46,158 nt of DNA from Kiritimatiellia bacterium (GTDB lineage Bacteria > Verrucomicrobiota > Kiritimatiellia > RFP12 > UBA1067): NCBI GenBank assembly GCA_017395505.1, contig JAFPUH010000036.1, forward strand, positions 1-46,158, in the 5' to 3' direction. Positions 30,870 to 46,158 of the stretch are shown in pieces (position 1 is the stretch's first letter; each line of letters opens with the position of its first letter). The notes beneath the pieces were generated by a model. That model did not search any database and was not told the origin of the DNA. It saw nothing but the letters and a program-made list of their open reading frames with translations. Both the position numbers and the translations under genes were made by a program.

Positions 30870-33800
30870 TTACTTCTGAATCGACTTAGTGTTGCCCTTG
30901 TTGATGTACCAGAATCCGGTACCTGCAGGAATCGTCGCATCGACCCAAGCGGACTGCATTTCGCCGTTCTCGTCAATCCAGACCTTGTAGGTCTTCCAAC
31001 CGCCCTCTCTGACCTCGACACGGGTAGGTGCCGCAGCAGTCGGGACGACAATGATGTCTTTATCTGCAGCTGGAGTTTCGGCTTCATACTCAGGAACCTT
31101 GACAACATCGGTAATTACAACCTCAGCCTCGACTGCCTTAGGAACAGGCGCGACCATGTTGTAGCCGTGATCAACCGTATCCAGAGCCGAGGTCTCCTCC
31201 TCTTCGGTGTAAGCACCAGAGAGGATGAGTTCAACAGTCGGATCGTAGGTCACCCACACACCCTGTCCAGCCGTAAGCTGATAGATTGCCGCCTCAGGAA
31301 CAGTGGTATTGACCTGGTTGCCGTTAGCATCGAGCACTGCCGTTGCTGCAGCAATCCAACCATCAGTCGTCGCATCAAACGCCCAGCTGTAGAACCTGGA
31401 GGTGTTCTTGTCAAAAGCCTTGAGGACCAGACTTTCGGTCGTAGGACGACCCTCCGTGACGATAAGTGCAGAAGCTTTCATCGCACCAGGAACGGTCACG
31501 ATTGTCGTAACTTCTGTTGCGGCAGGAGGAAGCGTAGGCGTGACAACCGCGACACCATCATTATAGGAGTAGAACGCCTTGTACGTTACATCATTAGTGA
31601 CGACCTCGATGGCAGGAGTCCACTTCTGGAATGTCCAGCCATCTCTACCGGGAGCAACGCGGGAAGGAGTGGTACCCTTCGTCAGACGCTCGGTCGCGAG
31701 GACTGTGCCATCCGCAGCCTGCCAGGTGACCGTCGCACCCTCAACCACCTTCATCCAGCCTTCTTCATCAGCCGGCTGTCCGATGTATCCATTAGGCGTG
31801 AAGTCGGTCGTTGCATCGGTGCTCTCCGCAGTGTTCGCCTGCGGATCCCAATTGTGGAACACACCGCCAGTAATCTTGGCGCTCGCCGTTCCGCTACGGT
31901 ATGCCGAATCGAGCATATTAATGAGGAACGCATAGCCCTTGGTATTATCGGTCTGATAGAGATCGAAGCTACCACCCTGGACATTGACCGAACCTTCATA
32001 CACATACACGGCGGAGATGTTGCCGATGAATGTACCGTTGACTATGGTCAGGCTACCTCCATCACGCACGTCAAGCGCGTAGCAGTCGTATTGCTTAGGG
32101 TCGAACTTACCATTTCCAGTGATCGTGAGATTACCGCCTTGGACACTCACGAGCGACCAGGAGCTGCTTGCTGTATCCCAGATGTCATCAACGTTCTTGA
32201 TGGTATTTCCACCCATATCGAGCGTCAAGGTCTTAGTGACAGCAATCTGAGCATCAAGTGTCACATTAGCGAGTAGCTGGATCGTGTCGCCGTCGTCAGC
32301 AGCTTCAACCGCCTCTGCGAGGGTTTCGTATCCCTCTTCGCCGATCAAGGCAACATAGGAACTAACCTTTACAGTGTAGGTGCCATCACCATTATCATGG
32401 CAAATGTAGCCCGTCGCGCAGAACTCCTCGGCAACCGCCGTGGAGAACGTGCCGCCCGACACTGCAAGACGCTGGTTCGTGTCGCTGGCCGCGTTCACAA
32501 ACTGAACCGCATCAACTCCTGCCGCGGAGGTGAACGTGCCGCCAGCAACGGAAACCTGAGATTCATCCGTCTTGCCAGAATATCCAGCCCTGCTGTCGTA
32601 GACGATCGCCGCGCACGGAACCACAACGTTGGAGTCGCCGACCTTACCGATCGCGCTGCCCGTCGTGGTGATCGTGACGCCCTCCTTCACCGTCACGACG
32701 CCCGCGCGGGCCAGGATGCCCACGCCGCCAGTGATGTTGAACGTGCCGCCGTTGACCGTCCACGTGTCGTTGTTCGGGGCATAGATGCCGCACGCGACGT
32801 AGCCCGCGGAAGTGATGCCGCCGTTGAACGTGCCGCCGTTGATCGTCCAGACGTTGTTGCCGGAGTTAGCCGAGCCGTTGCCCGAGAGGACCGAGTTGTC
32901 AACCGTGGTGAACGTGCCGCCATCGATGTTGATCGTGGCGCCGGTGCAATCCTTGAAGGTCGCGACCGCGCACTCCTGGGCGTTGAACGTGCCGCTCTTG
33001 ATCGTCGTCGTGGAGCCGCTCATGGCCCTGACGCCATACGTGCCGGAAACCGTGCCGCTGCCGGTGACGGTCAGAGTACCGTTGTTGACGATTCCGTAGT
33101 AGCCGCCGGAGATGGTCTTGCCGTTGAGGTCAAGCGTGATCTCCTTGCCGGCCGGGATCGTCGCGGGTCCGGTCACGCCCGCCAGCAGGGTGACCGTGTC
33201 GCCGGCTTCCGCCGCGCCGATCGCCTCCGCGAGCGCCTCGTAGCCCTGGCCGTTGACCTCAGCCACATAGACCTTCTCGACCAGCGAGTAGCCGGTCTCG
33301 GTCTCGACCCACTTGTAGTCCGCAGGGACAACGATCGAGTCAGAGGTGGCCGTTACCGTCACCGCGTCGCCCTCGTCCTTCACGACCTGGACGGGCGTGA
33401 CCTCGGAACTGAGCGTGACGTTATCGAGCGAGATGCCCGTCGTCGCCTCGTCGTAGCCGGGATAGTTCGCCGCGGAGTCGTACACGATCGCAGCGCACGG
33501 GACAACAACGCGGCTGTCGCCGACCTTGCCGGTCACGCTGCCTGTCGTCGTGAACGTGCCGCCAGTCACGTTCACCACGCCCGCACGGGCGAGGATGCCG
33601 CAGCCGCCGGTTATGTTGAACTCGCCGCCGCTCACGTTGACCGTGTCGTTGTTCGCCACGTAGATGCCGCACGCGACGTAGCCAGCCGAGGTGATGCCGC
33701 CGTTGAACGTGCCGTCAGTGATGTTGAACGTGTTGCCGCTGTACCCGCTCGTGCCGTTGTCGCCGATCACCGCGTTGTCGATCGAGGTGAACTCGCCGCC

Positions 33801-36800
33801 GTTGATCGTGATCGTGTTGTTCGACGAGTAGCCCGTCAGCACGCAGAACTCCTGCGCCTGGACAGTCGCGTCGTTGACCGTGAGCGTGCCGCCGGTAGAA
33901 TTGTTGTTGAACGCGAACGCGCTGTTGCCGGTCGAGGTGTAGGTGCCGCCTTCAACCGTCACCGTGCCGCCGCTCACGAGTATCGGGGAGTACGTCGCAG
34001 TGATCGTGCCGCCGTCGACCGTCAGCTCGCCCCAGACCACGATGCCGTAGCTGGGCGAGGTGATCGTCTTGCCGTTCAGGTCGAGCGAAACCGTCTTGCC
34101 GGAGCCGACGTACATGTAGGTCGTGCTGGCGATGTCCGCGAGCAGCGTCACTTCGCCGCCAACGTCAAGCGCCTCCTGAAGCGTCTCGTACTTGGTAGAG
34201 CCGATCTGCGCGACATAGTTCGTCACTGTTTCCGTCGGGGTGTAGGTCGCCGTGTAGGTCACATCTTCCGTAGCAGCCGCAACCGTCCAGCCGTCGAACG
34301 CATAGCTCGTGACCGTCGTGCTCGTCGCCGCCTCGACAACATCGTCCGCACGCGTCGGAGCCGCCGTCGGAGCGGGTGTATCACCCTTCTTGACGCGCAG
34401 GGTTTCGAGGACCGTGCCGTCGTAGTCCGCGAAGGTGATCACATAGCCTTCCTCGACTGTGAACGTGCCATTGCCATCGTCAACTGCGATGTAGCCGGGA
34501 GCCGTGTAGTCCGTGCCCGCACCCTCGGACTTGTTGTCCTGCGGGTCAAAGCCGACGAATGTGCCGCCCTCGATCGAGAAGCCGGCATTGCCAGCCTGAT
34601 AGGCCGCATCGACGCAGTTGAACGCGAAGTCGCTGCCGTACGGGGCGGAGTACGGCGTCAGCGTGAACGTGCCGCCGGTGACCACGACGCTGCCGAGCTG
34701 CGCCTGGACAATCGTGCCGCCGCCGTGGTAGTGGCCGCCCGCAATCGTCAGCGTCGCGCCGTTGCGTACGTTGAACGCATACACGCCCGTCACCGCGCCG
34801 TCGGCGTCGGCGACCGCCTTGTCAAGGCAGTCAACGCCGCCGGTCGTGCCGGTCACCGTCGTGTCGGCATCGATGTAGATTGCGCACCAGTTCGCCGTCG
34901 GCTCAAGTGAGCCAGGCACCGAATAGGTGTACGCGCCGAAGTCAATCGTGATCGCCTTCGTCACAACAAGCCTGTCGTCCGTGCTCGTCTTGTTCGCATC
35001 AGCCGTCTCGTTCGCGACCAGCGTCACCGTGTCGCCGGCCTGGGCAGCGTCGATCGCGGCCGCGAGCGTCTCGTACGGGGTGCTGCCGATCTTCGCGACT
35101 GCAACGACGGGGGCGGAAGCCGGGGCCGTAGGAGCTGCTGCGGCAGCAGCTGTCCAGTTCACCGTTGTCGTGGTGGCGCCACCCGCGAACACATAGCCGT
35201 CATTCGCCGTGTAGGTGACTGTAACCGCATCACCAATCGTGGCGGTGTATTCGTTCGCGTTGCCGGTCGGTGTCGCGCCAGTCACAGCTGTAACCGTTGC
35301 ATTCGCCAACGCAGGAACCGTGAACGTCACCACATCCAGCTCGGTTGTGACCGTGATGGTCGTGTTACCAGTGACGGTAGCGTTATATTCGCCAGCCGTG
35401 GTGCCGACTTCCGTACCGTTCACCTGAACCGACGTAACCTTGTAGGTCTCAGCAGCCGCAACCGTAAAGGTAATCGCAGGTGAAGCCTCGCTGACAGGGC
35501 TCGTGAAGCCCGTCACTGTCGCATTCTCAGCCACAACCGTCACCGTCCAGCTGTACCAATCGCGGGCGGTGTAGGTGGTGACACCTTCCTCGGTTGTGGT
35601 CGAGGTCTTGATGCCTTCCGCGAAGTAAACATTGTCACTAAGGTCAACCGCACCAGCAATGACCTTGAGCGTCTGGTCTACGGCAACAGTCACGGAATCA
35701 TTAGGATCAGAAAGCACCGTAATCGTTGCCGTGTCGGTACCATTTCCAGCCGCCGCCCAAGCGTCAGCAAGGTTGAGATAGCCGGCAGTTCCGATCTTCG
35801 TCACAACCTTGGCATAATGCGCACCAGCCGCATCGCAGCCAATCTTGTAATCGGCATAGGCGTTGCCATTGTCGGAACCGTCAATGACATCAACATAAGC
35901 TCCATCATTAGAGAGCTGGTTGAACTGCACATACAAGTAGCCAAGAGCACTGTTGAAGCTAGAATAGTACGCTCCATTGTTATCACGCGCCACAGCCGCC
36001 GTAGTGGAGCCAGTGTCCTGAGCTGTTACTTCAATATTAGCAGTAACCGTGCCGAGATCGACGACCTTGGAGGTATCGTTGCCGAAGAAGTAGCCTTCGC
36101 CTGCCGTGTAGGTCACTATTACCGCCGTGCCCTGATCAACCGTGTAAGTGTCGGCCGCCGTACCGGTCTGCGAAACGCCACCTGTTGTATAGGCAACACT
36201 GACAGTAGCGTTGTCAACCGTCGGAACCGTCACCGTCACCGTGTTGCGGGTGACTGTCGGGGCAACTGCCTCGTCATTGCCCGTGAGAGTGAAGTTCTGA
36301 GTACCGTTGGCTGTGACACTGTAGTAGGTATCAGCCGTGTAGGTGACAACCGCCGCCGTGCCGTAGTCGAAGGTGTAAACCCTCTCACCCTCACCCGCGA
36401 CGCCTGTCTGCTCAGCGTCACCAACAGTCACCGTCGCCGTCGCATTCTCAACCTCCGGCACCGTCAGCGTGTACTGGTTGACGGTCGAGGAGAACTGCGC
36501 CGTGTAGGTGGTCGCCTCGGTGACAGCGTCGAAAGCAGGAGTCCAGCCAGTAAATGCATAGGTGTACTGCGCAGTAGCCGTCCTGGTCGGAGTTTCGCTA
36601 GTACTAGTATAGGAAGGCGTCTCGCCGTAATCGACATAGGTTACGGACTGAACACCGTCAACATCCCAAGTGATCGGCACCTGAATCTTGGTGAGACGAG
36701 TATCGTTAGAGGTAAGCTCCCAGCCAGTCGGAACATTGCCAGCCGTCGCATCGGAAACGACGATTGTGTCGCCAGCCGTGTAGTCCGCTACTGCTGCATC

Positions 36801-39800
36801 GTATGTAGCGTAGTACTTATCGCCAATGTTCGCAACTGCGTAGTAGAGGCCCGAGACATTGTTGATTGTCGCAAAAACAGCCTTGCCGGAGAACTCGTAT
36901 GTCTGGTTGCCAAATTCGACCGAGGCTGTCACGTCAACTGGATATACGGAAGCATCATTTCCATCACTATTCAGAATCTCGCCAGTGGTCTTAGTGCAAG
37001 CAACAATCACGGTATTCGCAGCAGGCATGCCAACCGTCTTCACCGCACCTATCGTCACATGGTCATTTGCACGAACGGAAAGAGTGCCATCAAAACCGTT
37101 AAGTTCCGTGAATGTGTAGTAGCTGTCGCGTCCAGATGTATTATTTCCTCGCGTAGAGAACGTCTTGTTTGCCGCCATGCCGACCTTGGCAAAGGTAGTC
37201 GCGCCGCTAGAACCGCCAAAGCCATCGTTAATCGTCACATCCTTGTCGAAATACAGCGCTGGTGCAATTGACGGAGCTGCAAGACCGGAGGAGTCAGTAT
37301 TGAAGTAACCAGATGTAACTTCGGTAGACACTTCCACCGTCGAGCCAGTTATACCATACTTGTCAGGCATCATCTTCCCACTCATATCCCAGCCGACCAC
37401 GAACGTACCGGTCCAGCCGTTGGCAACGAAGCGGGCGGCAGCCCAAGTTGTGGCGGAAGGAGCCGTCTCGACAATGATCGTGCCAGCGCCTGTCAGTGTG
37501 CCGGAGAATGCGAATCCATTCTCTACGAACACGATAGTCTTGTCGAGTGTCACAGCCTCGCTGCAATCAGTGAGGAGCGTCACAGTCGAGGGATTCTCCG
37601 CGTCGGAGCTGGCGGCAGCAATCGCACCCGCGAGCGTCGTAAACGAGGTCGGCACATCGTTGACCGGTACGCTGGCCACATACTGCGTCGCAACGGTAGA
37701 TTCATCGAGAGTGAAGGTCGTCTCGTTGTTCGCGACATTGATCGTGTACTCAGCTTGGCCGACAAGTTCCCAACCCGCAGCAGCGACATATGTCACTGTG
37801 ACGACGGTCGCATCTTCACGGACAGAACCCTCTCCGTTGACAATTTCAACGGGCGTTTCGCCGACAACAGCCGTCGCAACCGCACCAGTGACCTCGGGGA
37901 TCGTAATGGTCACATATGTGACTACGTAGATACCGTCATCCTTCGTGATAAGTCCGACATCGCTAGATTCTCCGCCGATCGTAAGCGCAGAAGCCTCGAC
38001 ATCGCCATCGCCTGTCACAGAAAGCAACTTGGCTCCCTGGGCGGTAGACGTCCCCGCCTCGCGGGCAAGCGTACCGATGGTAAGGGTGGTGTTGATATCT
38101 GAATAAATCGAGCCAGAGAAGCCCTCGGCAACCTTCGTGATGCTGGCAGCATATGGGTGGTTGTCGTACGGGTCGAGCGAGAACGTTCCCGAACCAGTGA
38201 TCTCGGCGAACGTGTAGGTCCACAAGGTCGAGAAGCCGGTGATGGTCACATTGCCATCAAGCTGGAGCGCGGGCAGAACATCCATCCTGTGATTGGTGGT
38301 ATCGGTTTCGCCGAGCCAGCCGCTAGTGATGCCCTTCAGGACAACCGTGGAGCCAGTCACACCATACTTGTTGAGGATCGTTCCATCAGCAGCAAACGAA
38401 GGCAGAACAACCGTACCGGTCCAGTCAGTGAACGTGATGGACGGGTTGTTGCGGAACGTCTTGAAGGTCAGTGTGCCGTTGCCGGTAAGCGTACCGGAGA
38501 AGATACCTGTTTCGGAGAGGGTAATAGCCTTGTTGAGGGTGATCGTCTCGCTGGAGTTGCGAAGCAATTCAACATCATATTCACCAGTAGCAGCCGCTAT
38601 TGCAGCCGCGAGAGTTCCATAAGTTGTAGTACCAATCTTGGCGACAGCCTTAGTCACCGTATTGCCACTGACATAATAATTCATGCCCTGCAACGTTGTT
38701 GCGGTTTCTGCATCTACATCGCCAGCGAGGAGCGTGAACACAACCGCTTCATCCGTGGATGCCATCAATGCGGAAAACGCCGACTCAACACTGGAGTAGT
38801 ACAGCGTCACGCCGTTCTGCGTGACACTGGCTTTGGCGGAAGCATACGGGATAAGCTTTACGCCCGTGTCCGTATACGCGGAATCAACCACCGTGCCTTG
38901 AGCGCAGGTGTAGCTGCCGAGCGGGGTCACTATCACAGACCCGCTCGCAACGCCAACCGTAGAACCGCTGGAAATCTTCAGCGCACCAGAGCCATCATTA
39001 GTGAACCCAGCGAACGAAATCTTCCCATTGAGGGTGGTTTCCTGAGTCAGCGTCATGGTGCCAGTCAGTTCAAGAGTTCCACCAGTAACGTCAACCGGCT
39101 CGGTAACCGTGATTGAGCCAGGGCCAGTCAGAGTCAGCGTCGAATCAGTCGCCAAGGGGAGCTGAAGCTGATTAGCGGTAATCGTCTCGGGCAGAGAAAT
39201 CCTCGCATCGCCTTCAGTCGTAAGAATGACCTTGGACTGGTCATTGCCGCCAGTCCAAGCTGGGCTCCAATCAAGAGTTCCGCCTGTCCAAGTCGTATCC
39301 GTATCTGCCGCCGCCGTCGCACGATAGACCACGATCGCAGGGAACTCAACGGAAAGCGCCGCAATCTGCGCTGCTGAGAGCGAATAGTCGTAAAGACGGA
39401 CGCAGTCGATACGCGCTTCCTTAAGATCATCCTCGGTCAGTCCTTCATAGGTATTACCCTTCCAGACAGCGGTAATACCCGTAGCGTTTATGCCACCATG
39501 CACGGAACCTACCTGAATGCCCCCGCCAAGCGTAAAGGCAGAATATGTCTCGTTGAGAACTTCAGAACCATCGCAATAGACCTTGACGGTAGAGTTATTT
39601 TCAACAACAAAAACATAGACATGTTGAGCAGATGTGCCATTGACGATGTCCATGTCCGCTAGCTTCGTATACGCCGAATTACCAGTTGTCTTTACGAGCT
39701 GCATCTGCGTTTCTGGATTATCTCCAGCGAGGAGGCCGATAAGGCCACCCGAACACGTTCCAAACGTGATAACCGCACCATTGGGAACATTCGGAACAGT

Positions 39801-41438
39801 GCAACGAACAACGGCCGTCCAAGTTGACGGATAGGAGATATCGCGCCAGGGATGCGTGTAGGTATAAAGCATTGAGGAGTTATAAAACGAGTTGTTTTCG
39901 TCACTTCCATTGTAATTAAGCCCAACGCTATCCACACCTGTATTATTCAAGTCGCCATTCATCTCGTAGTCACACCAGCAAGCCTTGCCGGAAACGAGAA
40001 CGGTTCCTCTATTATATGTGGCAGCGCCATTTTCAGGAGTTAGCGTAGTCACTACCGTGGTGCCGTCGGGAGCGAATACGGTGATGGACGAAATCCCGCT
40101 TGCGCCAGTAACATTGAGCAACCCCTTGCCATATTCCTCTGTGGTCATGGTAATCTTGACCGGAACAGAAGAGTTGACCGAGAAACCGGTGAAATCACGC
40201 ACAGAACCAAGGGAAGCGAGTGTCGCACCTGCGTTCACCGTCACGGTACCTGAACCACTGTTGGCAATGCTTCCCGTAACCGTACCATTGACTGTAAGCG
40301 TGCCGGAGTTGATGACATCGCCAGAAAAAGTGCCATCAACACTTACCGTACCCTTGTTAATAAGCGTTGGCGCGGTCCAAGTCTTGCCTGTCGGAATCGT
40401 AATGGCATTGCTGTTTTGGGTAACGTAAATGCAGCCCTTATAGTTCTCATAGCACTCGTTGTAGAAAACTCTATTTCCAAGCTGATCCGTGGACGAGCAG
40501 AATATTGCAAATAGTTTTGTGCTACCTGCACATGTATTAATAGCACCGGTAAAGTCGTCAGCATTGTATATCTTGAGCGCAGGCGTCCAATTATAAGTAG
40601 TTTGATTAGACACATCCAAAGTGCCATCACCGGACATTTTATGCCAGGTACTAAAGCGATTTGGATTGTTGCTACTCATAGAATTTGCGTTGACGATCCG
40701 GAAAGCATAATTGTAAGGCCCATTTACAAGCACAATTTCAGAGGTGCTTTCATTATCTGTAGACATCCAGCGACCCGCTCCTGACAAATAATACTTGCCG
40801 GCAGTGGTGACATAAAACTCGGCGCTTTGGGAATTATTGACAATACCGTTGACAATCTCGCCCTTGACCTCGAGAAGTATTGCCGTTGCTCCTGAATCAT
40901 ATCTGACATTTGAATGCCCCAAATACACACTGGTATCCATGTCAGTTGCGAATCTGAACGCAATATTGCCGGATGTCATGAAATCGCCATTTGCATCGCA
41001 CCACTTGATTGCGCTGCCCGAACCTACGACCATGAGACAATTCGAACTGGAGAAATCATACTTGTATTTGGTCGCTCCTCCATTCGTAAACGTCTCGGTT
41101 GTATCGGCAGCAGCGGAAACGCAACCAGAGAGCATCAACTTTCCCGGCATCGCATTGGCATTGGTCGCTTTACCGATGGCGACTGACGTAATTCGCAGAA
41201 CATTACCAGAGGTCAAGCCCCCGGTAGCTGGAATTGTCAGCGTTCCATTCTGATAACCGCTAGCGGCTAGAGAGCCCATGTTAGCAAAATCGCTAGCGTT
41301 GTCGTTACTGATTGTGAATTGGCTACCGGTCACCGTTACGCTCGGCACCGTCGCTGCCCACGCGCCGCCGGCGAGGCTGATAGCGATTGCCAGCGCAGCA
41401 AACCGCGCCAGTTTCAATCTTTCAATTATTGTTTTCAT
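30870..41438 (-). CDS. Giant modular surface protein
   Basis: 3522 residues. Starts at the ATG at 41438, preceded by AAGGGA, giving a standard signal peptide ending GGAWA (about residue 28). A lectin/LamG-like region lies at about 485-695. Eight copies of a short module of type IGxxxYxTLAxAIxAAxxGDTVTLL occur near residues 940, 1265, 1540, 1885, 2120, 2410, 2730 and 3030. An InlB B-repeat-like unit (FTGWTPAFDAVTEATTYTAQF) is near 1625, with others later. Two consecutive right-handed beta-helix-like blocks (about 2430-2950) are tandem duplicates. A distinct C-terminal domain (about 3315-3522) ends IPAGTGFWYINKGN. No LPXTG, autotransporter barrel or PEP-CTERM anchor is seen, so attachment is unexplained. 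Likely adhesin or surface-layer role. Heads the exported-protein operon. Confidence 0.85.
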   Translation of the reverse strand: MKTIIERLKLARFAALAIAISLAGGAWAATVPSVTVTGSQFTISNDNASDFANMGSLAASGYQNGTLTIPATGGLTSGNVLRITSVAIGKATNANAMPGKLMLSGCVSAAADTTETFTNGGATKYKYDFSSSNCLMVVGSGSAIKWCDANGDFMTSGNIAFRFATDMDTSVYLGHSNVRYDSGATAILLEVKGEIVNGIVNNSQSAEFYVTTAGKYYLSGAGRWMSTDNESTSEIVLVNGPYNYAFRIVNANSMSSNNPNRFSTWHKMSGDGTLDVSNQTTYNWTPALKIYNADDFTGAINTCAGSTKLFAIFCSSTDQLGNRVFYNECYENYKGCIYVTQNSNAITIPTGKTWTAPTLINKGTVSVDGTFSGDVINSGTLTVNGTVTGSIANSGSGTVTVNAGATLASLGSVRDFTGFSVNSSVPVKITMTTEEYGKGLLNVTGASGISSITVFAPDGTTVVTTLTPENGAATYNRGTVLVSGKACWCDYEMNGDLNNTGVDSVGLNYNGSDENNSFYNSSMLYTYTHPWRDISYPSTWTAVVRCTVPNVPNGAVITFGTCSGGLIGLLAGDNPETQMQLVKTTGNSAYTKLADMDIVNGTSAQHVYVFVVENNSTVKVYCDGSEVLNETYSAFTLGGGIQVGSVHGGINATGITAVWKGNTYEGLTEDDLKEARIDCVRLYDYSLSAAQIAALSVEFPAIVVYRATAAADTDTTWTGGTLDWSPAWTGGNDQSKVILTTEGDARISLPETITANQLQLPLATDSTLTLTGPGSITVTEPVDVTGGTLELTGTMTLTQETTLNGKISFAGFTNDGSGALKISSGSTVGVASGSVIVTPLGSYTCAQGTVVDSAYTDTGVKLIPYASAKASVTQNGVTLYYSSVESAFSALMASTDEAVVFTLLAGDVDAETATTLQGMNYYVSGNTVTKAVAKIGTTTYGTLAAAIAAATGEYDVELLRNSSETITLNKAITLSETGIFSGTLTGNGTLTFKTFRNNPSITFTDWTGTVVLPSFAADGTILNKYGVTGSTVVLKGITSGWLGETDTTNHRMDVLPALQLDGNVTITGFSTLWTYTFAEITGSGTFSLDPYDNHPYAASITKVAEGFSGSIYSDINTTLTIGTLAREAGTSTAQGAKLLSVTGDGDVEASALTIGGESSDVGLITKDDGIYVVTYVTITIPEVTGAVATAVVGETPVEIVNGEGSVREDATVVTVTYVAAAGWELVGQAEYTINVANNETTFTLDESTVATQYVASVPVNDVPTSFTTLAGAIAAASSDAENPSTVTLLTDCSEAVTLDKTIVFVENGFAFSGTLTGAGTIIVETAPSATTWAAARFVANGWTGTFVVGWDMSGKMMPDKYGITGSTVEVSTEVTSGYFNTDSSGLAAPSIAPALYFDKDVTINDGFGGSSGATTFAKVGMAANKTFSTRGNNTSGRDSYYTFTELNGFDGTLSVRANDHVTIGAVKTVGMPAANTVIVACTKTTGEILNSDGNDASVYPVDVTASVEFGNQTYEFSGKAVFATINNVSGLYYAVANIGDKYYATYDAAVADYTAGDTIVVSDATAGNVPTGWELTSNDTRLTKIQVPITWDVDGVQSVTYVDYGETPSYTSTSETPTRTATAQYTYAFTGWTPAFDAVTEATTYTAQFSSTVNQYTLTVPEVENATATVTVGDAEQTGVAGEGERVYTFDYGTAAVVTYTADTYYSVTANGTQNFTLTGNDEAVAPTVTRNTVTVTVPTVDNATVSVAYTTGGVSQTGTAADTYTVDQGTAVIVTYTAGEGYFFGNDTSKVVDLGTVTANIEVTAQDTGSTTAAVARDNNGAYYSSFNSALGYLYVQFNQLSNDGAYVDVIDGSDNGNAYADYKIGCDAAGAHYAKVVTKIGTAGYLNLADAWAAAGNGTDTATITVLSDPNDSVTVAVDQTLKVIAGAVDLSDNVYFAEGIKTSTTTEEGVTTYTARDWYSWTVTVVAENATVTGFTSPVSEASPAITFTVAAAETYKVTSVQVNGTEVGTTAGEYNATVTGNTTITVTTELDVVTFTVPALANATVTAVTGATPTGNANEYTATIGDAVTVTYTANDGYVFAGGATTTTVNWTAAAAAAPTAPASAPVVAVAKIGSTPYETLAAAIDAAQAGDTVTLVANETADANKTSTDDRLVVTKAITIDFGAYTYSVPGSLEPTANWCAIYIDADTTVTGTTGGVDCLDKAVADADGAVTGVYAFNVRNGATLTIAGGHYHGGGTIVQAQLGSVVVTGGTFTLTPYSAPYGSDFAFNCVDAAYQAGNAGFSIEGGTFVGFDPQDNKSEGAGTDYTAPGYIAVDDGNGTFTVEEGYVITFADYDGTVLETLRVKKGDTPAPTAAPTRADDVVEAATSTTVTSYAFDGWTVAAATEDVTYTATYTPTETVTNYVAQIGSTKYETLQEALDVGGEVTLLADIASTTYMYVGSGKTVSLDLNGKTITSPSYGIVVWGELTVDGGTITATYSPILVSGGTVTVEGGTYTSTGNSAFAFNNNSTGGTLTVNDATVQAQEFCVLTGYSSNNTITINGGEFTSIDNAVIGDNGTSGYSGNTFNITDGTFNGGITSAGYVACGIYVANNDTVNVSGGEFNITGGCGILARAGVVNVTGGTFTTTGSVTGKVGDSRVVVPCAAIVYDSAANYPGYDEATTGISLDNVTLSSEVTPVQVVKDEGDAVTVTATSDSIVVPADYKWVETETGYSLVEKVYVAEVNGQGYEALAEAIGAAEAGDTVTLLAGVTGPATIPAGKEITLDLNGKTISGGYYGIVNNGTLTVTGSGTVSGTYGVRAMSGSTTTIKSGTFNAQECAVATFKDCTGATINIDGGTFTTVDNSVLSGNGSANSGNNVWTINGGTFNGGITSAGYVACGIYAPNNDTWTVNGGTFNITGGVGILARAGVVTVKEGVTITTTGSAIGKVGDSNVVVPCAAIVYDSRAGYSGKTDESQVSVAGGTFTSAAGVDAVQFVNAASDTNQRLAVSGGTFSTAVAEEFCATGYICHDNGDGTYTVKVSSYVALIGEEGYETLAEAVEAADDGDTIQLLANVTLDAQIAVTKTLTLDMGGNTIKNVDDIWDTASSSWSLVSVQGGNLTITGNGKFDPKQYDCYALDVRDGGSLTIVNGTFIGNISAVYVYEGSVNVQGGSFDLYQTDNTKGYAFLINMLDSAYRSGTASAKITGGVFHNWDPQANTAESTDATTDFTPNGYIGQPADEEGWMKVVEGATVTWQAADGTVLATERLTKGTTPSRVAPGRDGWTFQKWTPAIEVVTNDVTYKAFYSYNDGVAVVTPTLPPAATEVTTIVTVPGAMKASALIVTEGRPTTESLVLKAFDKNTSRFYSWAFDATTDGWIAAATAVLDANGNQVNTTVPEAAIYQLTAGQGVWVTYDPTVELILSGAYTEEEETSALDTVDHGYNMVAPVPKAVEAEVVITDVVKVPEYEAETPAADKDIIVVPTAAAPTRVEVREGGWKTYKVWIDENGEMQSAWVDATIPAGTGFWYINKGNTKSIQK

Positions 41439-41662
41439 GTCATTTTCCCTTCTCTTGTTAATTTTAAATGGTGGTATGAACACTTGAGACTCCTTTATCA
41501 GCTAAATGATTGTGAAGACGTTACCCACATCTTCTAAGGTACATGCAAGGATTATGCCCATCACAGCCCTCCCTTAAAAAGAGAATAGCCACACGCCCCC
41601 GCAAGGCGAAGCCTAGGGGGTGGAGTGGCGCGGACTAGACGAGTCACGCGGCTAAAGTATGT

Positions 41663-41672
41663 GGGGGGGGGG
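41663..41672. repeat. G10 homopolymer tract
   Basis: Ten consecutive G on the plus strand (C10 on the coding strand of the giant gene), 225 bases upstream of the giant-gene ATG. Tracts of this length are prone to slippage. Whether it lies within a promoter is not known. Confidence 0.9.
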
Positions 41673-41911
41673 TAAAGAAAATTCCGTTCATTTACTCAGC
41701 CCTCCTTCCTTCCGCGCGGCGGGTTGCGAGGGTGTGCGAGGAGATACGCCATGCCATGCATAGCGAACCAATGACGCTAGAACGCCTGATTTTATTGGCT
41801 TTCGTCATAGTTGTCTTATGCCCGGGAACTACTCCTCACCCAAGCTTCGAGACCATAATAGCAAAAAGGTTAGAGTAGCGCAAGAGGGTACGAGAAAAAA
41901 AATTCGGCGGT

Positions 41912-41950
41912 GCGTCAAGGGGCTCGTCGGTGGCCAAGCTGCTGCGCTCG
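41912..41950 (+). repeat. 39-base repeat, copy 1
   Basis: Identical to 45788-45826 over 39 bases, beginning GCGTCAAGGGGCTCG and ending CTGCTGCGCTCG. The two copies bracket the accessory island in the same orientation. Confidence 0.9.
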
Positions 41951-42112
41951 GTCTCGGCTGACGAAACTCTGCGGCGGCTATATCTTTAGACAAGAAGCCT
42001 TGTTGAGGTCGGTCAACCTAGACAAAGTCATTGGTTGCAGAGAAGCTCACTCATACGCTTGCAGATTTCGTCAGACCTCACTCGCGCCCACTTGGCCAAC
42101 CTCCTCACTAGT

Positions 42113-42130
42113 GCTCGGCCTACGGCCTCG
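42113..42130 (+). repeat. 18-base direct repeat, copy 1
   Basis: GCTCGGCCTACGGCCTCG, repeated exactly at 42163-42180. The core GGCCTACGGCC can form a small hairpin. Confidence 0.85.
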
Positions 42131-42162
42131 AAATGCGACGAAATGCCGCCCCGCCTCTTAAG

Positions 42163-42180
42163 GCTCGGCCTACGGCCTCG
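42163..42180 (+). repeat. 18-base direct repeat, copy 2
   Basis: Exact copy of 42113-42130, start to start 50 bases. Confidence 0.85.
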
Positions 42181-42240
42181 GGAAACACACTTGTTGGCAT
42201 CTCGCTCGGAAACGTCTTATGTTATGAGCCACGCAAAACG

Positions 42241-42274
42241 GTTGAGCTACTTAACCCATAATCGAAAATCAGCG
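42241..42274 (+). repeat. 34-base repeat, copy 1
   Basis: Identical to 43903-43936 over 34 bases, starting GTTGAGCTACTTAACCC. It lies on the 3' side of the ORF6N gene; the second copy lies on the 3' side of the abiE genes. Confidence 0.9.
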
Positions 42275-42305
42275 GAGGGCGCTAGATCGCGACTGTAGTG
42301 AAAAT

Positions 42306-42342
42306 GGGCATCAATGGGGTCGTACCCCATGGACGACCCCAT
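42306..42342 (+). repeat. Nested palindrome, copy 1
   Basis: ATGGGGT-cgt-ACCCCAT (42314-42330) overlapped by a 10-base inverted repeat ATGGGGTCGT / ACGACCCCAT (42314-42323 and 42333-42342). Starts with GGGCATCA, also present at 44190. It lies 17 bases after the ORF6N stop codon and could act as a 3' hairpin for that mRNA although no T-run follows. Confidence 0.8.
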
Positions 42343-42358
42343 GGCAAACTGCAACAAA

Positions 42359-43264
42359 TCACATCCTTTGCAAGATCGATGGAATGAATGCCGCATCCAT
42401 TTTCGACACGGCGCAGTAGTGGCGTCCAAGATCCTTCAGCGATGCGCCGAAATGGTAAAGCTCCTTGCCGTCTATGACAAGGAAGCGGTCGTGGAATCTG
42501 CCGGTATGCCTCACCTCAAGCGTCGGATTCTGCTTGTTGAACTTCGCTATGGCCGTTTCTGAAATGGGAGTCTTATCGACAGTCGCAACAGTGACCTTCA
42601 CACCGCAGCGCTTTGCAGACAGGATGTCGAGCGTAACATCGTCGCAATAGCCATCGACGAGCAATATGCTCTTTGTCGCCTTGCCGACAAGCTTCTTCGC
42701 AAACGAATACGCCTCGTAGTGCCGTCCGTCGAAAAACACCTTCTGCGGCGGAAACTCCCCGCCGTCCATCGCCTTGAATATCGTATCAAACCGCTCCTCG
42801 TTGCGTTGCTGATCAGCGATTTGACGGCATTCTACCATATCAATACGATTAATGAGCGGTGAAATTGACGATAAAGCCCTACGCATCGCAACAAATGCAT
42901 GCGTGATGCGAATGCTTGCTTGAACAGCCACTTCACTTTTCAAAATACTTGCAAGCATGATTATACCATATCCTGTAAAAACATACGGAATATATCTTGT
43001 GCCTCCGCGACCTGCGTTTGAGGTCGCAAATTGCGACCTCAAACTGGAAAGTTCGCCCGCTGTCGGTTGAAACATAAAGTCCGAGGGGAATCTCTCTAGA
43101 TTACGTTTTACCTGCTCGTTCAGGCGTTTCGTTGGTACTCCGTATAGAACGGCCAGATCACTATCCAGCATTACCTGAACGCCACGGATTGTGAATATCC
43201 GCGACTTTATTGCGGCATCGGCGTCAAGTGGGTCCACCAGGGCACTAGTGCTTTGTCCGTTCAT
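42359..43264 (-). CDS. ORF6N domain protein with PLD-like C-terminus
   Basis: 301 residues. The N-terminal part (about 18-110) is an ORF6N/KilA-N-related DNA-binding-type domain as in phage and mobile-element proteins: FTIRGVQVMLDSDLAVLYGVPTKRLNEQ. The C-terminal half resembles a single phospholipase-D-like half site: FHDRFLVIDGKELYHFGASLKDLG, with H258 and D265 spaced as in HxK(x4)D but Arg for Lys. A short helical link with AFVAMRRALSS joins them. GGAGAT lies ahead of the ATG at 43264. Likely accessory DNA-binding or defence protein; function unproven. Isolated gene inside a repeat-rich island. Confidence 0.8.
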   Translation of the reverse strand: MNGQSTSALVDPLDADAAIKSRIFTIRGVQVMLDSDLAVLYGVPTKRLNEQVKRNLERFPSDFMFQPTAGELSSLRSQFATSNAGRGGTRYIPYVFTGYGIIMLASILKSEVAVQASIRITHAFVAMRRALSSISPLINRIDMVECRQIADQQRNEERFDTIFKAMDGGEFPPQKVFFDGRHYEAYSFAKKLVGKATKSILLVDGYCDDVTLDILSAKRCGVKVTVATVDKTPISETAIAKFNKQNPTLEVRHTGRFHDRFLVIDGKELYHFGASLKDLGRHYCAVSKMDAAFIPSILQRM

Positions 43265-43293
43265 AACATATCTCCTTTCGTGTTGACGAGGAT

Positions 43294-43302
43294 ATTATCC
43301 CA
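43294..43302 (-). promoter_or_regulatory. Probable ORF6N promoter (extended -10)
   Basis: Minus-strand TGGGATAAT (TGN plus GATAAT at 43299-43294), about 30 bases before the ATG at 43264, with GGAGAT between. The -35 is not consensus; CTTAAG boxes lie just upstream and may compensate through an activator. Confidence 0.45.
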
Positions 43303-43320
43303 TATTACTCGAAAAAGTAC

Positions 43321-43358
43321 CTTAAGCGAACCTTAAGCGAACCTTAAGATTTCTTAAG
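43321..43358. promoter_or_regulatory. Four helically phased CTTAAG boxes
   Basis: CTTAAG at 43321, 43332, 43343 and 43353, i.e. spacings 11, 11 and 10 bases; the first three are joined by CGAAC and the last two form an inverted repeat AACCTTAAG-attt-CTTAAGGTT. Located immediately upstream of the ORF6N promoter, so a likely cooperative operator. Confidence 0.6.
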
Positions 43359-43371
43359 GTTCAGACAACTT

Positions 43372-43406
43372 AAATGATAAAATGGGTCAGACCTGTTTTA
43401 TCATTT
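43372..43406. repeat. 35-base palindrome
   Basis: Arms AAATGATAAAA (43372-43382) and TTTTATCATTT (43396-43406) are perfect, and the inner GGTC-a-GACC continues the pairing. The core GGGTCAGACC is shared with the palindrome at 43640-43660. Confidence 0.85.
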
Positions 43407-43639
43407 TGATAAGGTCCAGGGGCGGTGTCCGGCAAGGCGTCAGGCCAAGAGCAAAAACAACTTCACATGGCGTGTGTGATTGTTTGTGTGATTGTTTTGG
43501 GGAAAATGGACACGGTAAGTAGAGAAATATAGTATATATAAGGTATATATATTTAATTATATTTTACCCTAAAATCCAGTTTCGCCAACGCGCAGGGGGT
43601 ACCCTTACAACAAGTCCAGCCCTTGTGATGTTGGGCCTT

Positions 43640-43660
43640 CCATGGGGTCAGACCCCATGG
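43640..43660. repeat. 21-base perfect palindrome
   Basis: CCATGGGGTC-a-GACCCCATGG, 10-base arms round a single base. Same family as the palindromes at 42314 and 44197, with AGA replacing CGT at the centre. Confidence 0.85.
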
Positions 43661-43672
43661 ACGCACTGGAGG

Positions 43673-43688
43673 TTTTTAACCACGAAAA
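43673..43688 (+). repeat. 16-base repeat TTTTTAACCACGAAAA, copy 1
   Basis: Exact copy at 45973-45988. It ends in CACGAAAA and abuts the hairpin element at 43689-43810. Confidence 0.8.
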
Positions 43689-43810
43689 CTGGGCGGGGAG
43701 GCAATCGCTGACGCGATTTGAAGCAAGCGGGCTCGTCGAGCGGACTGCAAACAAGTTTGCGTCGCTCGCGACCCGCCAGCTTCAGCCTCACGGCTGGCCT
43801 CCCCGCCCAG
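43689..43810. repeat. 122-base inverted-repeat element with nested stems
   Basis: Perfect 14-base terminal inverted repeats (CTGGGCGGGGAGGC at 43689-43702, complement at 43797-43810). Inside are small hairpins AATCG/CGATT and CAGCC/GGCTG flanking a central long stem built from GAAGC/GCTTC, GGG/CCC, CGAGCG/CGCTCG and GCAAAC/GTTTGC. CACGAAAA occurs directly on the left (43681-43688) and one base off on the right (43812-43819), resembling a target duplication. No gene inside. Confidence 0.75.
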
Positions 43811-43902
43811 ACACGAAAACCCGCCTAAAGCGGGACACGAAATCACACGAAAGCTTCGCCCGAACCAGTGACGATGCATTAAGACATTAGCTACACAAAA
43901 CA

Positions 43903-43936
43903 GTTGAGCTACTTAACCCATAATCGAAAATCAGCG
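43903..43936 (+). repeat. 34-base repeat, copy 2
   Basis: Exact copy of 42241-42274. It sits between the two halves of the hairpin array. Confidence 0.9.
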
Positions 43937-44189
43937 AAGATCCGCTAGTTGGCAATGATGAGTAAAGTTAAACCACTGCTTTTCGTGGCCTGCGCAGCAG
44001 GCGTTTCGTGTCGGCCGAAGGGCCGCTTTCGTGTCCGGCGAGGCGATGATGACCCGCAAGGGTGAATACGGCGGTTTGACGTTGGCGAAAGCGCAGCTTT
44101 CACGCCAACCGGCAAAACGACGGCTTCAAATCGGCGCAAGCCGATTCATCGCCAGCCGGTTTTCGTGGTCGCGCGAAGCGCCATACGGG

Positions 44190-44213
44190 GGCATCAATGG
44201 GGTCGTACCCCAT
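44190..44213 (+). repeat. Palindrome, copy 3
   Basis: GGGCATCA followed by ATGGGGT-cgt-ACCCCAT (44197-44213), identical in sequence to the copy after ORF6N, here 58 bases after the abiEii stop codon. Confidence 0.85.
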
Positions 44214-44270
44214 GGGCGACTTCAAGGTTGCCATGCAGATCAGATGTGGCCATTATCCGCATTGCAGTTT

Positions 44271-45089
44271 CTACGCCTTGTTGATTGACTCTATCAGGTC
44301 GTTCGCCCATGCAACCGCCTCGTCGCAGGTCGGAAGGACGTCAAGCCCATTCCCCGCATCTTCGTAAAGGGAATCCCATGCCGAACCTTTCGCCACGGTC
44401 GGCGGCCAGGGCTGCCTACGCCGATAGTCAAAAAGCCTAATGCAGATCTCCCTTGCTTCGGCAAGGTCAATCTGCGAATGCCCGCACATGAGCTGAAGGT
44501 CGACAAGGTCGTGCGGACGATCCGCACCCGCCGTTGTGACAGCGTGCAGTTTCTGTGCAATCTGGTACGACAGCTTCATTACTGGGATCGGATTCGGACG
44601 AGGAAATCCAAGTTGCTCAAGCACATCGGCGATGTCGGACGGATATTCAAGCTCTGCTTCGTCGGCGTCGCCAATCTCGTTGTGGCCGATTTCAATTCTG
44701 ACGGTCTGCCACGATCTGTCGTTGTATGCGAGTCTTACGTCGTAAGGTATCATGACATAACCCTGCGGAACGCCTGCCGGATGAGGCGGCTCGACGCGCT
44801 GCAACCTTCCTGTAAAACCGTTCCATCCAGCCTTGAGACTCGATTCAAGCTTGTCTAGATATGCGTCCAACTCCATGACGCGGGCCGTGTCCATGTCACG
44901 GGTGTAGCGCGTCATGTTGCCGCCGTAGCGGAACATCAGTGAACTGCCGCCCTTGACGACGCCGTCGGGGAGCATCTGCGCGATGATCACGTTGGCAAGT
45001 GCGCGGCCGAGCCGCAATGCGTCGCGTTCCTGTCCTGCGATCCTGTTTATCGCCTTGATGAGATTTGTGCACGTATTTGGACGGTTCAT
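44271..45089 (-). CDS. abiEii: AbiEii/AbiGii-family nucleotidyltransferase toxin
   Basis: 272-residue toxin component of a type IV toxin-antitoxin/abortive-infection system. The nucleotidyltransferase signature is VVKGGSSLMFRY (K46, G47, G48) followed by RYTRDMD with the metal-binding D65 and D67. Further family motifs are KLSYQIAQKLHAV (the basic helix) and HDLVDLQLM. The ATG overlaps the antitoxin stop codon as ATGA. Known relatives act on tRNA 3' ends or similar acceptors with nucleoside triphosphates; the target here is not known. No membrane or secretion signal. Confidence 0.9.
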   Translation of the reverse strand: MNRPNTCTNLIKAINRIAGQERDALRLGRALANVIIAQMLPDGVVKGGSSLMFRYGGNMTRYTRDMDTARVMELDAYLDKLESSLKAGWNGFTGRLQRVEPPHPAGVPQGYVMIPYDVRLAYNDRSWQTVRIEIGHNEIGDADEAELEYPSDIADVLEQLGFPRPNPIPVMKLSYQIAQKLHAVTTAGADRPHDLVDLQLMCGHSQIDLAEAREICIRLFDYRRRQPWPPTVAKGSAWDSLYEDAGNGLDVLPTCDEAVAWANDLIESINKA

Positions 45090-45616
45090 TGGGCAAACTC
45101 CCTCTTGAGTTCATGGTATTCCTGCCGGCCGACAAGACCCTGTCGCTCGGCCTCGTCGATGGCATCGACAAGACGCTCCCTTATGACGGTTCCCCTGCAT
45201 GCACGAATCGCGTCGGCCACCGACTGGCAGGCAATCCCCTCGAACATCTCCTCCTTTACGCCTTCGGACTTTTTGACAAGGCGTATCCACTCGGGAAGGT
45301 TTCGACGGACGCGCTTCTCGACCGCCACTTGAATTTGCTTTGGATTCACAAGGGCGAGGTTGTGCATGGCCAGCACACCGTCGCCATAGATGATGGCGTC
45401 CCGCCCGACGAGGGCAATTGCCTCTGCGTAGTGGTCGTATGGCGTCGGGACATGATACTTGATTCTGTACACGCCGCGTCCGCATCTCTCCAGTCGACCA
45501 TTCGCCTCCCAGAAAAGCAACTGCTTGCGGTGAATACCTAGTTCAGCGGCATCCTCCACGGTTATGAGTCCATACCGTTCTGCGGCAGCCTCATAAACTT
45601 TATCAAAGTTTTTCAT
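45086..45616 (-). CDS. abiEi: AbiEi-family antitoxin/transcriptional regulator
   Basis: 176-residue antitoxin with an N-terminal winged-helix DNA-binding domain (about 1-55: YGLITVEDAAELGIHRKQLLFWEANGRLERCGRGVYRI) and the AbiEi C-terminal domain (GDGVLAMHNLAL onwards). AbiEi proteins both neutralise the toxin and repress their own operon. The ATG at 45616 follows the -10 by 6 bases, predicting a leaderless mRNA; a longer frame upstream lacks support. Directly coupled to abiEii by a 4-base overlap. Confidence 0.9.
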   Translation of the reverse strand: MKNFDKVYEAAAERYGLITVEDAAELGIHRKQLLFWEANGRLERCGRGVYRIKYHVPTPYDHYAEAIALVGRDAIIYGDGVLAMHNLALVNPKQIQVAVEKRVRRNLPEWIRLVKKSEGVKEEMFEGIACQSVADAIRACRGTVIRERLVDAIDEAERQGLVGRQEYHELKREFAQ

Positions 45617-45637
45617 GTCAATATGATACCATAATCG
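45616..45637. promoter_or_regulatory. abiE operator-like direct repeat, proximal copy
   Basis: A 22-base unit beginning TGTCAA and containing TGATACCATAATCG (45624-45637), matching 45670-45691 at 20 of 22 positions, 54 bases apart (about five helical turns). This copy covers the -10 box and the start codon, a position suited to autorepression by AbiEi. Confidence 0.65.
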
Positions 45638-45652
45638 AGAACATTTTGTCAA
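45623..45652 (-). promoter_or_regulatory. abiEi promoter, leaderless
   Basis: Minus-strand -35 TTGACA (45652-45647), 18-base spacer, -10 TATCAT (45628-45623), then six bases and the ATG at 45616. The -10 lies inside the proximal operator repeat. Confidence 0.7.
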
Positions 45653-45669
45653 TGGCCAAAAGGTGAAAT

Positions 45670-45691
45670 TGTCAAATTGATACCATAATCG
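45670..45691. promoter_or_regulatory. abiE operator-like direct repeat, distal copy
   Basis: Second 22-base copy with TGATACCATAATCG at 45678-45691, upstream of the -35. See 45616-45637. Confidence 0.65.
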
Positions 45692-45787
45692 CCAACAAAG
45701 TGACAAAGCAAAATGCAATATAGACCTATTTGCCGGAACATAACCCATTTACCACACGGTCATCAACTCGTCCCAGCGGGTGGTGGG

Positions 45788-45826
45788 GCGTCAAGGGGCT
45801 CGTCGGTGGCCAAGCTGCTGCGCTCG
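45788..45826 (+). repeat. 39-base repeat, copy 2
   Basis: Identical to 41912-41950, same orientation, 3876 bases away. Lies just beyond the abiE promoter. Confidence 0.9.
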
Positions 45827-45972
45827 ACCTCGCATAGCTCGGTGTGTTCGCGCCGCCTCTTGCGACCGCTTCGCGGCTCGGGCATAGCCCTCGGGCAACC
45901 CGACGCCTTCGGCGCAGGGGCATCACCCCCAAGGGGCGCGAACCCCCTCAAGGGGCGGTTACCGACCTCGTT

Positions 45973-45988
45973 TTTTTAACCACGAAAA
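45973..45988 (+). repeat. 16-base repeat TTTTTAACCACGAAAA, copy 2
   Basis: Exact copy of 43673-43688, followed again by a G-rich segment (TGGGAGAGGC). Confidence 0.8.
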
Positions 45989-46033
45989 TGGGAGAGGCGG
46001 TGTGTCGTTTACGCGCTAGTGATTCGCTGCTTC

Positions 46034-46148
46034 GGAGAAAACAGATGATGCGACATCGATTTTGCGACCTTTTACATTTTGCCAATGCCGGCTGTACTAT
46101 CGGCAAAATGGCGGTGCGTCAAAATCGGGTCGCTCACCAGTTTTCTCC
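46034..46148. repeat. Large imperfect inverted repeat
   Basis: The left arm GGAGAAAACAGATGATGCGAC then CGATTTTG and ATTTTGCC pairs with a right arm that reads, as its complement, GGAGAAAACTGGTGAGCGAC then CGATTTTG and ATTTTGCC. Arms are about 50 bases with small gaps around a loop near 46085-46100. Truncated context at the window edge prevents classification. Confidence 0.65.
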
Positions 46149-46158
46149 GCGCTCATCA

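Follow-up and report, generated by a model that had tools for sequence, protein, structure and literature searches.

IVSs of 23S rRNA are small (~430 nt) selfish elements bounded by terminal inverted repeats, with either one ORF, for the S23/IVP protein, or none; their origin and mobility are unexplained (PMC4990558). REP sequences and their transposases have also been described, including the "TIRYT" transposases that are flanked by GGGGWSAS repeats (PMC3733652). The TAACTGA heptamer arrays of Beggiatoaceae are predominantly direct repeats found upstream of start codons (PMC4679880). We examined a stretch of 46,158 nucleotides (the window) that is contig JAFPUH010000036.1 of the rumen Kiritimatiellia bacterium assembly GCA_017395505.1 (1.82 Mb in 56 contigs). 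At 43681-44167 it holds four copies of the heptamer CACGAAA followed by four copies of its reverse complement TTTCGTG.

The unit containing this array shares features with each of several known systems. It is small with inverted termini, like the 23S IVS, and the IVP genes of the genus likewise lie within inverted arrays of short words (17/20); however, the window element stands between protein genes rather than in 23S rRNA, lacks an IVP ORF, and bears hairpin modules within each arm. It resembles MITEs in being short, multicopy, bounded by inverted termini and without a transposase gene, and in that internally deleted relatives of gene-bearing copies exist; it differs in that no known transposase family is involved, no target duplication is seen, and the arms are modular hairpins rather than a single homologous TIR. 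Copies with the same arms around a gene for GxxExxY, a putative nuclease, are its possible autonomous relatives, and two internally deleted copies also occur.

Hairpins beside a constant word, inverted pairing and intergenic location recall REP/REPIN, RAYT and TIRYT systems, yet the word differs from both GTAG and CGTC, the stems are unconserved, and Y1 genes are unassociated with heptamer arrays. The Beggiatoaceae arrays also consist of an intergenic repeated heptamer, whereas here there are inverted pairs, hairpins and central cargo. A constant short repeat with variable intervening sequence suggests CRISPR, but the modules are self-complementary, the orientation flips midway, and the repeat is 7 nt (vs. 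~23-50 nt); CRISPR was rejected on repeat length and the self-complementarity of the modules. An earlier note had read the locus from its letters as a repeat-insertion or RNA-processing array and not CRISPR, and the repeat-insertion reading holds, in that the array belongs to an inverted-repeat element whose family is present or absent at orthologous sites. The heptamer-armed family is apparently undescribed.

Anatomy of the element and its surroundings

All eight heptamers were found where the earlier note had placed them, with CACGAAA starting at 43681, 43812, 43836 and 43846, and TTTCGTG at 43981, 44004, 44027 and 44161. The window contains 13 heptamers in total, and from the 5 in the remaining 45.7 kb about 0.05 would be expected in the 487 bp of the array, in agreement with the earlier chance estimate of 0.06. 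The array coordinates stand, but the whole unit is slightly longer, an inverted-repeat element of ~509 bp at 43673-44181 that runs from TTTTTAAC at 43673 through GTCGCGCGAAGCGC, ending at 44181. From outside to inside, the four heptamers of each arm are separated first by a large hairpin, then by a small hairpin, and last by either a three-base spacer or a second small hairpin. The arms are reverse complementary to each other essentially at the heptamers.

The left arm is described on the forward strand. Its terminus, TTTTTAAC (43673-43680), also precedes the repeats of two plain GxxExxY elements, L336 (TTTTTAACCACGAAACACACGAAATACACGAAA) and L193 (TTTTTTAACCACGAAATACACGAAA). Heptamer 1 (43681-43687; pairs with heptamer 8) is followed by the left large hairpin module (43688-43811), in which an outer stem and three internal hairpins fold as a cloverleaf whose shape recurs in many diverged copies. 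Between heptamer 2 (43812-43818; pairs with 7) and heptamer 3 (43836-43842; pairs with 6) lies the small hairpin module ACCCGCCTAAAGCGGGA (43819-43835), a type represented in our collection of 69 modules and in the covariation of 20 modules of 17 nt. The three-base spacer TCA (43843-43845), which is the "plain" spacing of hairpin-less relatives, leads to heptamer 4 (43846-43852; pairs with 5).

The centre (43853-43980) is 128 nt long and gene-less. It holds at 43903-43936 one copy of the 34-base repeat that had been pointed out earlier, GTTGAGCTACTTAACCCATAATCGAAAATCAGCG, the other copy being at 42241-42274; in sister copies on contigs C6 and C27 the centre is swapped for unrelated sequence. 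A tRNA-derived centre was considered and rejected, as ARAGORN finds none.

The right arm, on the reverse strand, comprises heptamer 5 (43981-43987), the small hairpin module GCCTGCGCAGCAGGCG (43988-44003), heptamer 6 (44004-44010), a second small hairpin module TCGGCCGAAGGGCCGC (44011-44026) that is near-identical to a left-arm module of the C16 sister copy, heptamer 7 (44027-44033), the large hairpin module (44034-44160), again of cloverleaf shape and with a conserved 2-nt bulge in its central arm, and heptamer 8 (44161-44167). The right terminus GTCGCGCGAAGCGC (44168-44181) is found, inverted, as the left terminus in relatives. Perfect hairpins between all heptamers had been claimed; the small hairpins are indeed perfect or nearly so, but the large ones at 43688-43811 and 44034-44160 are imperfect and multi-branched, and the TCA spacer forms no hairpin.

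The element's neighbours are protein genes. GGGGTC..ACCCC palindromes at 42316, 43644 and 44199 bracket the heptamer element and neighbouring genes (those for an ORF6N protein and an AbiEii/AbiEi pair); similar palindromes lie beside other gene cassettes on C17 and C35, and resemble the GGGGWSAS repeats of TIRYTs. The right flank toward AbiEii/AbiEi (44222-44382) is, from just past the palindrome, 95% identical in three other species (G012, G033 and G036), and the pair therefore looks, from sequence, horizontally mobile. The left flank (43456-43634) is a repeat with more copies on C5, C18, C20 and C34, and ends beside the palindrome GGGGTCAGACCCC. At 43320-43360, upstream of the ORF6N gene, CCTTAAGCGAA units are repeated in tandem and a short inverted repeat comes after them. 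Farther off, a minus-strand ORF (30870-41483) encodes 3537 aa with repeated surface-protein-like segments.

Folding and variation of the modules

When the element is folded as single-stranded DNA, its heptamers pair in register (1:8, 2:7, 3:6 and 4:5) and the modules protrude as side hairpins. The predicted result is a ladder of four-way junctions with dG of -156.1, compared to -97.1 +/- 4.7 for shuffles (z -12.6; for the other strand z -10.4). Pairing in register is also found in the complete relatives L043, L124 and L170, while elements with unequal arms pair partly.

Among relatives the constant word is CACGAA, with A, C or T as the next base. For CACGAA words on the same strand and at most 260 nt from each other, the 289 distinct stretches that they delimit have lengths clustering at 3-4, 16-18, 20-21 and 120-190 nt. 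Small hairpins were collected as 69 modules with 37 different stems, and 342 of their 364 stem cells are Watson-Crick. For the modules of 17 nt (n=20), 93% of cells pair, and sliding the partner by one base reduces pairing to <40%; cells changed on both sides number 23 vs. 6.6 in shuffles, with covariation scores of 0.625 and 0.144, respectively. These 20 were picked from 26 by excluding geometry misfits, and for all 26 stem pairing is 78% vs. 55% for swapped partners. Most loops, read on the CACGAA strand, are C(CTTC)G, C(TTC)G, C(TGC)G or C(CTAC)G.

A recurrent fold of the large modules has an outer stem enclosing one short hairpin, a long central arm bulged by two bases, and another short hairpin; among 148 examined stretches of 90-230 nt, 74 showed end-to-end closure. 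Under RNA parameters the more stable fold is that of the TTCGTG strand in 58 of 74 large hairpins, and under DNA parameters their G-T pairs number 105 on the TTCGTG strand vs. 78, both differences being modest. Modules conserve shape while their sequence changes, and copies differ by the exchange or lack of whole modules.

Related copies, empty sites and GxxExxY genes

The genome-wide search for CACGAAA pairs that the earlier note had proposed gave 14 pairs 2-30 nt apart (vs. 1 for the reversed pattern), on the four contigs C6, C16, C27 and C32. Most enclose a short hairpin, the exceptions being the three-base-spaced pairs (e.g., CACGAAATCACACGAAA) and a C16 pair at 62478. Lack of enrichment near hairpins elsewhere, which had been named as the result that would count against the reading, is itself refuted by these counts and by those from relatives.

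Whole or partial copies of the element were found on contigs C6, C16, C17, C27, C55 and C32 of the window genome; this genome and its relatives are draft assemblies, with several copies near contig ends. Element DNA was matched in 25 of the 96 genomes searched among relatives (including the window's own), and the conserved right end in 24 of 115 family genomes, where the reversed control had one match in all. Among GTDB genomes the right end occurs in 99 stretches, nearly all from rumen or gut MAGs of Kiritimatiellae type; unrelated bacteria gave a few matches, each single and possibly due to chance. Left and right ends could be paired in thirty cases, over distances of 94 to 3886 bp, some being the same place counted twice. 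Neither the right-end pattern nor the GxxExxY protein was matched in viral contigs, leaving phage carriage unsupported.

Several sites are occupied in one genome and vacant in another. Between the two genes that flank the hairpin-armed L124 element (G035, L359), G046 (L358) cleanly lacks the element, with homology on both sides; this is the one clean empty site for the hairpin-armed type. L282 and L284 lack L260, a related plain IVP element whose spacer is filled by a different short sequence in L283, L285 and L287. This filler, GGCTTAGCCGCAAAG, found where G046 has the IVP element, resembles a lone end of GCAAAG type. L286 has the genes that flank the GxxExxY element L202 but lacks the element itself, and some bases at its ends are rearranged. 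The clean empty sites L358 and L282, whose ends have drifted, show no evident target-site duplication, and no transposase for the element was found. Presence and absence is the mark of insertion or loss; it does not tell gain from loss, nor which enzyme is responsible.

Copies also differ by internal rearrangement. L196 (G035) and L197 (G030) are same-site insertions with the same outer arms, but with the centre in opposite orientation; the inverted centre, which includes the GxxExxY gene, is 97% identical over 431 bp, and its breakpoints are at CACGAA between the small hairpins. In the C16 copy the left small hairpin is almost identical to one in the window copy's right arm, while the modules next to it remain similar. 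The second unit on C6 goes from TTTTTAAC and CACGAAA straight into the centre, and on C17 the centre runs straight into the right terminus.

GxxExxY genes (TIGR04256, PF13366, PD-(D/E)XK superfamily) were found between CACGAA arms in at least 9 copies (L071, L084, L115, L126/L196, L197, L193, L195, L203 and L205), the heptamers of L203 and L205 having drifted. Deleted remnants occur in L040, which keeps residues 2-31 (96.7%) and the 3' end, and in L124, which keeps only the 3' end; many complete elements have no trace of the gene. Plain, hairpin-less CACGAA arrays flank GxxExxY in L336 (CACGAAA x3) and L193. CTACACGCTCTACACG words surround the CACGAA element in the flanks of L071 and L084, in inverted orientation on the far side, so that one word array may lie inside another.

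The two GxxExxY genes of the window genome itself lack CACGAA arms, one being between CACAAAG/CGCAAAG arrays and the other having only a 15-bp inverted match. Elsewhere in the genus, GxxExxY genes without CACGAA are flanked by inverted arrays of other words, among them GCAGAG, GCGGAG, GCAAAG, AGGATT and CACGGA. A strict array detector scored 12 of 30 GxxExxY loci, and many 23S-IVP loci as well, vs. 0 of 3000 random positions and 0 of 29 Y1 loci. A terminal-inverted-repeat score was passed by GxxExxY at 20 of 27 loci in the genus and 20 of 28 phylum-wide, and by IVP at 17 of 20, vs. 0 of 16 Y1-transposase genes and 2 of 299 random positions; the scored loci are best-scoring members, mostly one per genome, and these ratios are not population frequencies. 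The window array has the arrangement sought (a word two to four times, inverted at the other end), with four words on each side, around a centre with neither a GxxExxY nor an IVP gene. Outside the phylum a clear array was found only at Bernardetia, among five plasmid-borne GxxExxY loci. In the open-licence literature we found no description of inverted word arrays around GxxExxY genes or of such short words, and no established role outside rRNA for the GxxExxY or 23S-IVP families.

GxxExxY has invariant residues D71, E81 and K83, which fit a PD-(D/E)XK active site. No homologue of solved structure is significant by sequence (the best nuclease match is T7 endonuclease I, E 0.59) and structure prediction gave a low-quality model (pLDDT 51.5); the putative nuclease activity is therefore assigned from the Pfam superfamily and the conserved D...ExK.

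Origin and possible movement

The array very probably forms the terminal arms of an inverted-repeat insertion element. Given the arrays around GxxExxY and IVP genes, the plain arrays of L336 and L193, and the TTTTTAAC terminus that these two share with the window, we read the window array as a class member with hairpin-enlarged spacers that has lost its gene, and such membership is probable. With its gene-less centre, the window copy could belong to the GxxExxY/IVP class only as a derivative without cargo. The whole reading, of arms of an inverted-repeat insertion element with a gene-less centre, belonging to this class and proposed to be mobilised in trans, we consider reasonably likely.

Three other origins were weighed against it. 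Were the locus a REP/BIME-type array, its hairpins would be REP elements moved by a RAYT (Y1 HUH) transposase with CACGAAA as tag, and a constant unpaired word at one end of a hairpin does recall the GTAG/CGTC-tagged REPs (PMC3733652). The Y1 transposase that the earlier note suggested seeking is present, with two genes in the window genome and Y1 in 40 of 60 of the genus, but heptamer arrays flank none of the Y1 genes examined (0/29 by the array detector, 0/16 by the terminal-repeat score), and a REP/RAYT origin was rejected on this ground. The 12-mers common to Y1 flanks include instead the palindromes GGGACTGTCCCC/GGGGACAGACCC, which resemble the GGGGWSAS repeats of TIRYTs (PMC3733652); the Y1 genes here, sharing GGGGACAG-like palindromes, appear to fit the TIRYT/REP pattern and not the heptamer element. 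REP families keep their stem sequence, which the heptamer modules do not, and several heptamer elements carry GxxExxY instead, leaving this origin highly improbable. One terminus-like match near a Y1 gene (L033 2435) was discarded, being apparently within coding sequence and not an element.

Covarying stems and a fold that is extremely stable in either strand would also suit an array that acts as RNA, namely a bidirectional terminator, RNase III substrate or small-RNA source kept for regulation, with mobility incidental; 23S IVSs, whose protein family is similarly arranged here, are known RNase III substrates (PMC4990558). However, the arms are mirror images at the heptamers and would present opposite loop types in the two arms of a transcript, as expected of DNA ends and not of RNA; Rfam has no family at E<=1 in 41500-46158; and copies are sporadic, with a relative present or absent at an orthologous site. 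We regard an RNA role as unlikely. Somewhat less likely still is a host-made recombination relic, in which no dedicated enzyme took part and slippage during replication or template switching at inverted words gave rise to the array and its modules. Template switching at palindromes could produce the module losses, swaps between arms and inversion of the centre, and the arms within one element are not homogenised, but termini common to dozens of genomes, the clean empty site L358 and the repeated association with one gene family all speak against such a relic.

Returning to the insertion element, we propose one class of small selfish element in which heptamers would serve as both recognition and crossover points. 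In a single DNA strand or extruded cruciform, the heptamers would pair in register with the modules sticking out, and cargo-less copies such as the window's may be mobilised in trans. The likeliest mobilising enzyme would be the putative nuclease GxxExxY, acting on the cruciform or its junctions; we guess this from its association with the arms, the deleted derivatives and its superfamily. The PD-(D/E)XK superfamily includes junction-resolving enzymes, and such an activity would suit a ladder of four-way junctions. That GxxExxY itself catalyses mobility is nonetheless rather doubtful. We put forward tentatively, as a possibility of slightly better standing, a distinct and undescribed class of selfish element, with inverted short-word ends and as sole gene either a GxxExxY nuclease or an IVP four-helix-bundle protein, whose arms have here grown into a four-way-junction ladder and which may insert and invert by junction cutting at the heptamers.

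If so, GxxExxY and 23S-IVP would be candidates for the genes of a compact selfish-element class, three elements of which are present or absent between species, and the question of IVS origin and movement (PMC4990558) could be put to comparative tests in this system. What makes the hairpin-armed form unusual is that it conserves shape but not sequence and that one element could extrude a ladder of Holliday-like junctions; it would offer a natural substrate for studying junction-cutting enzymes.
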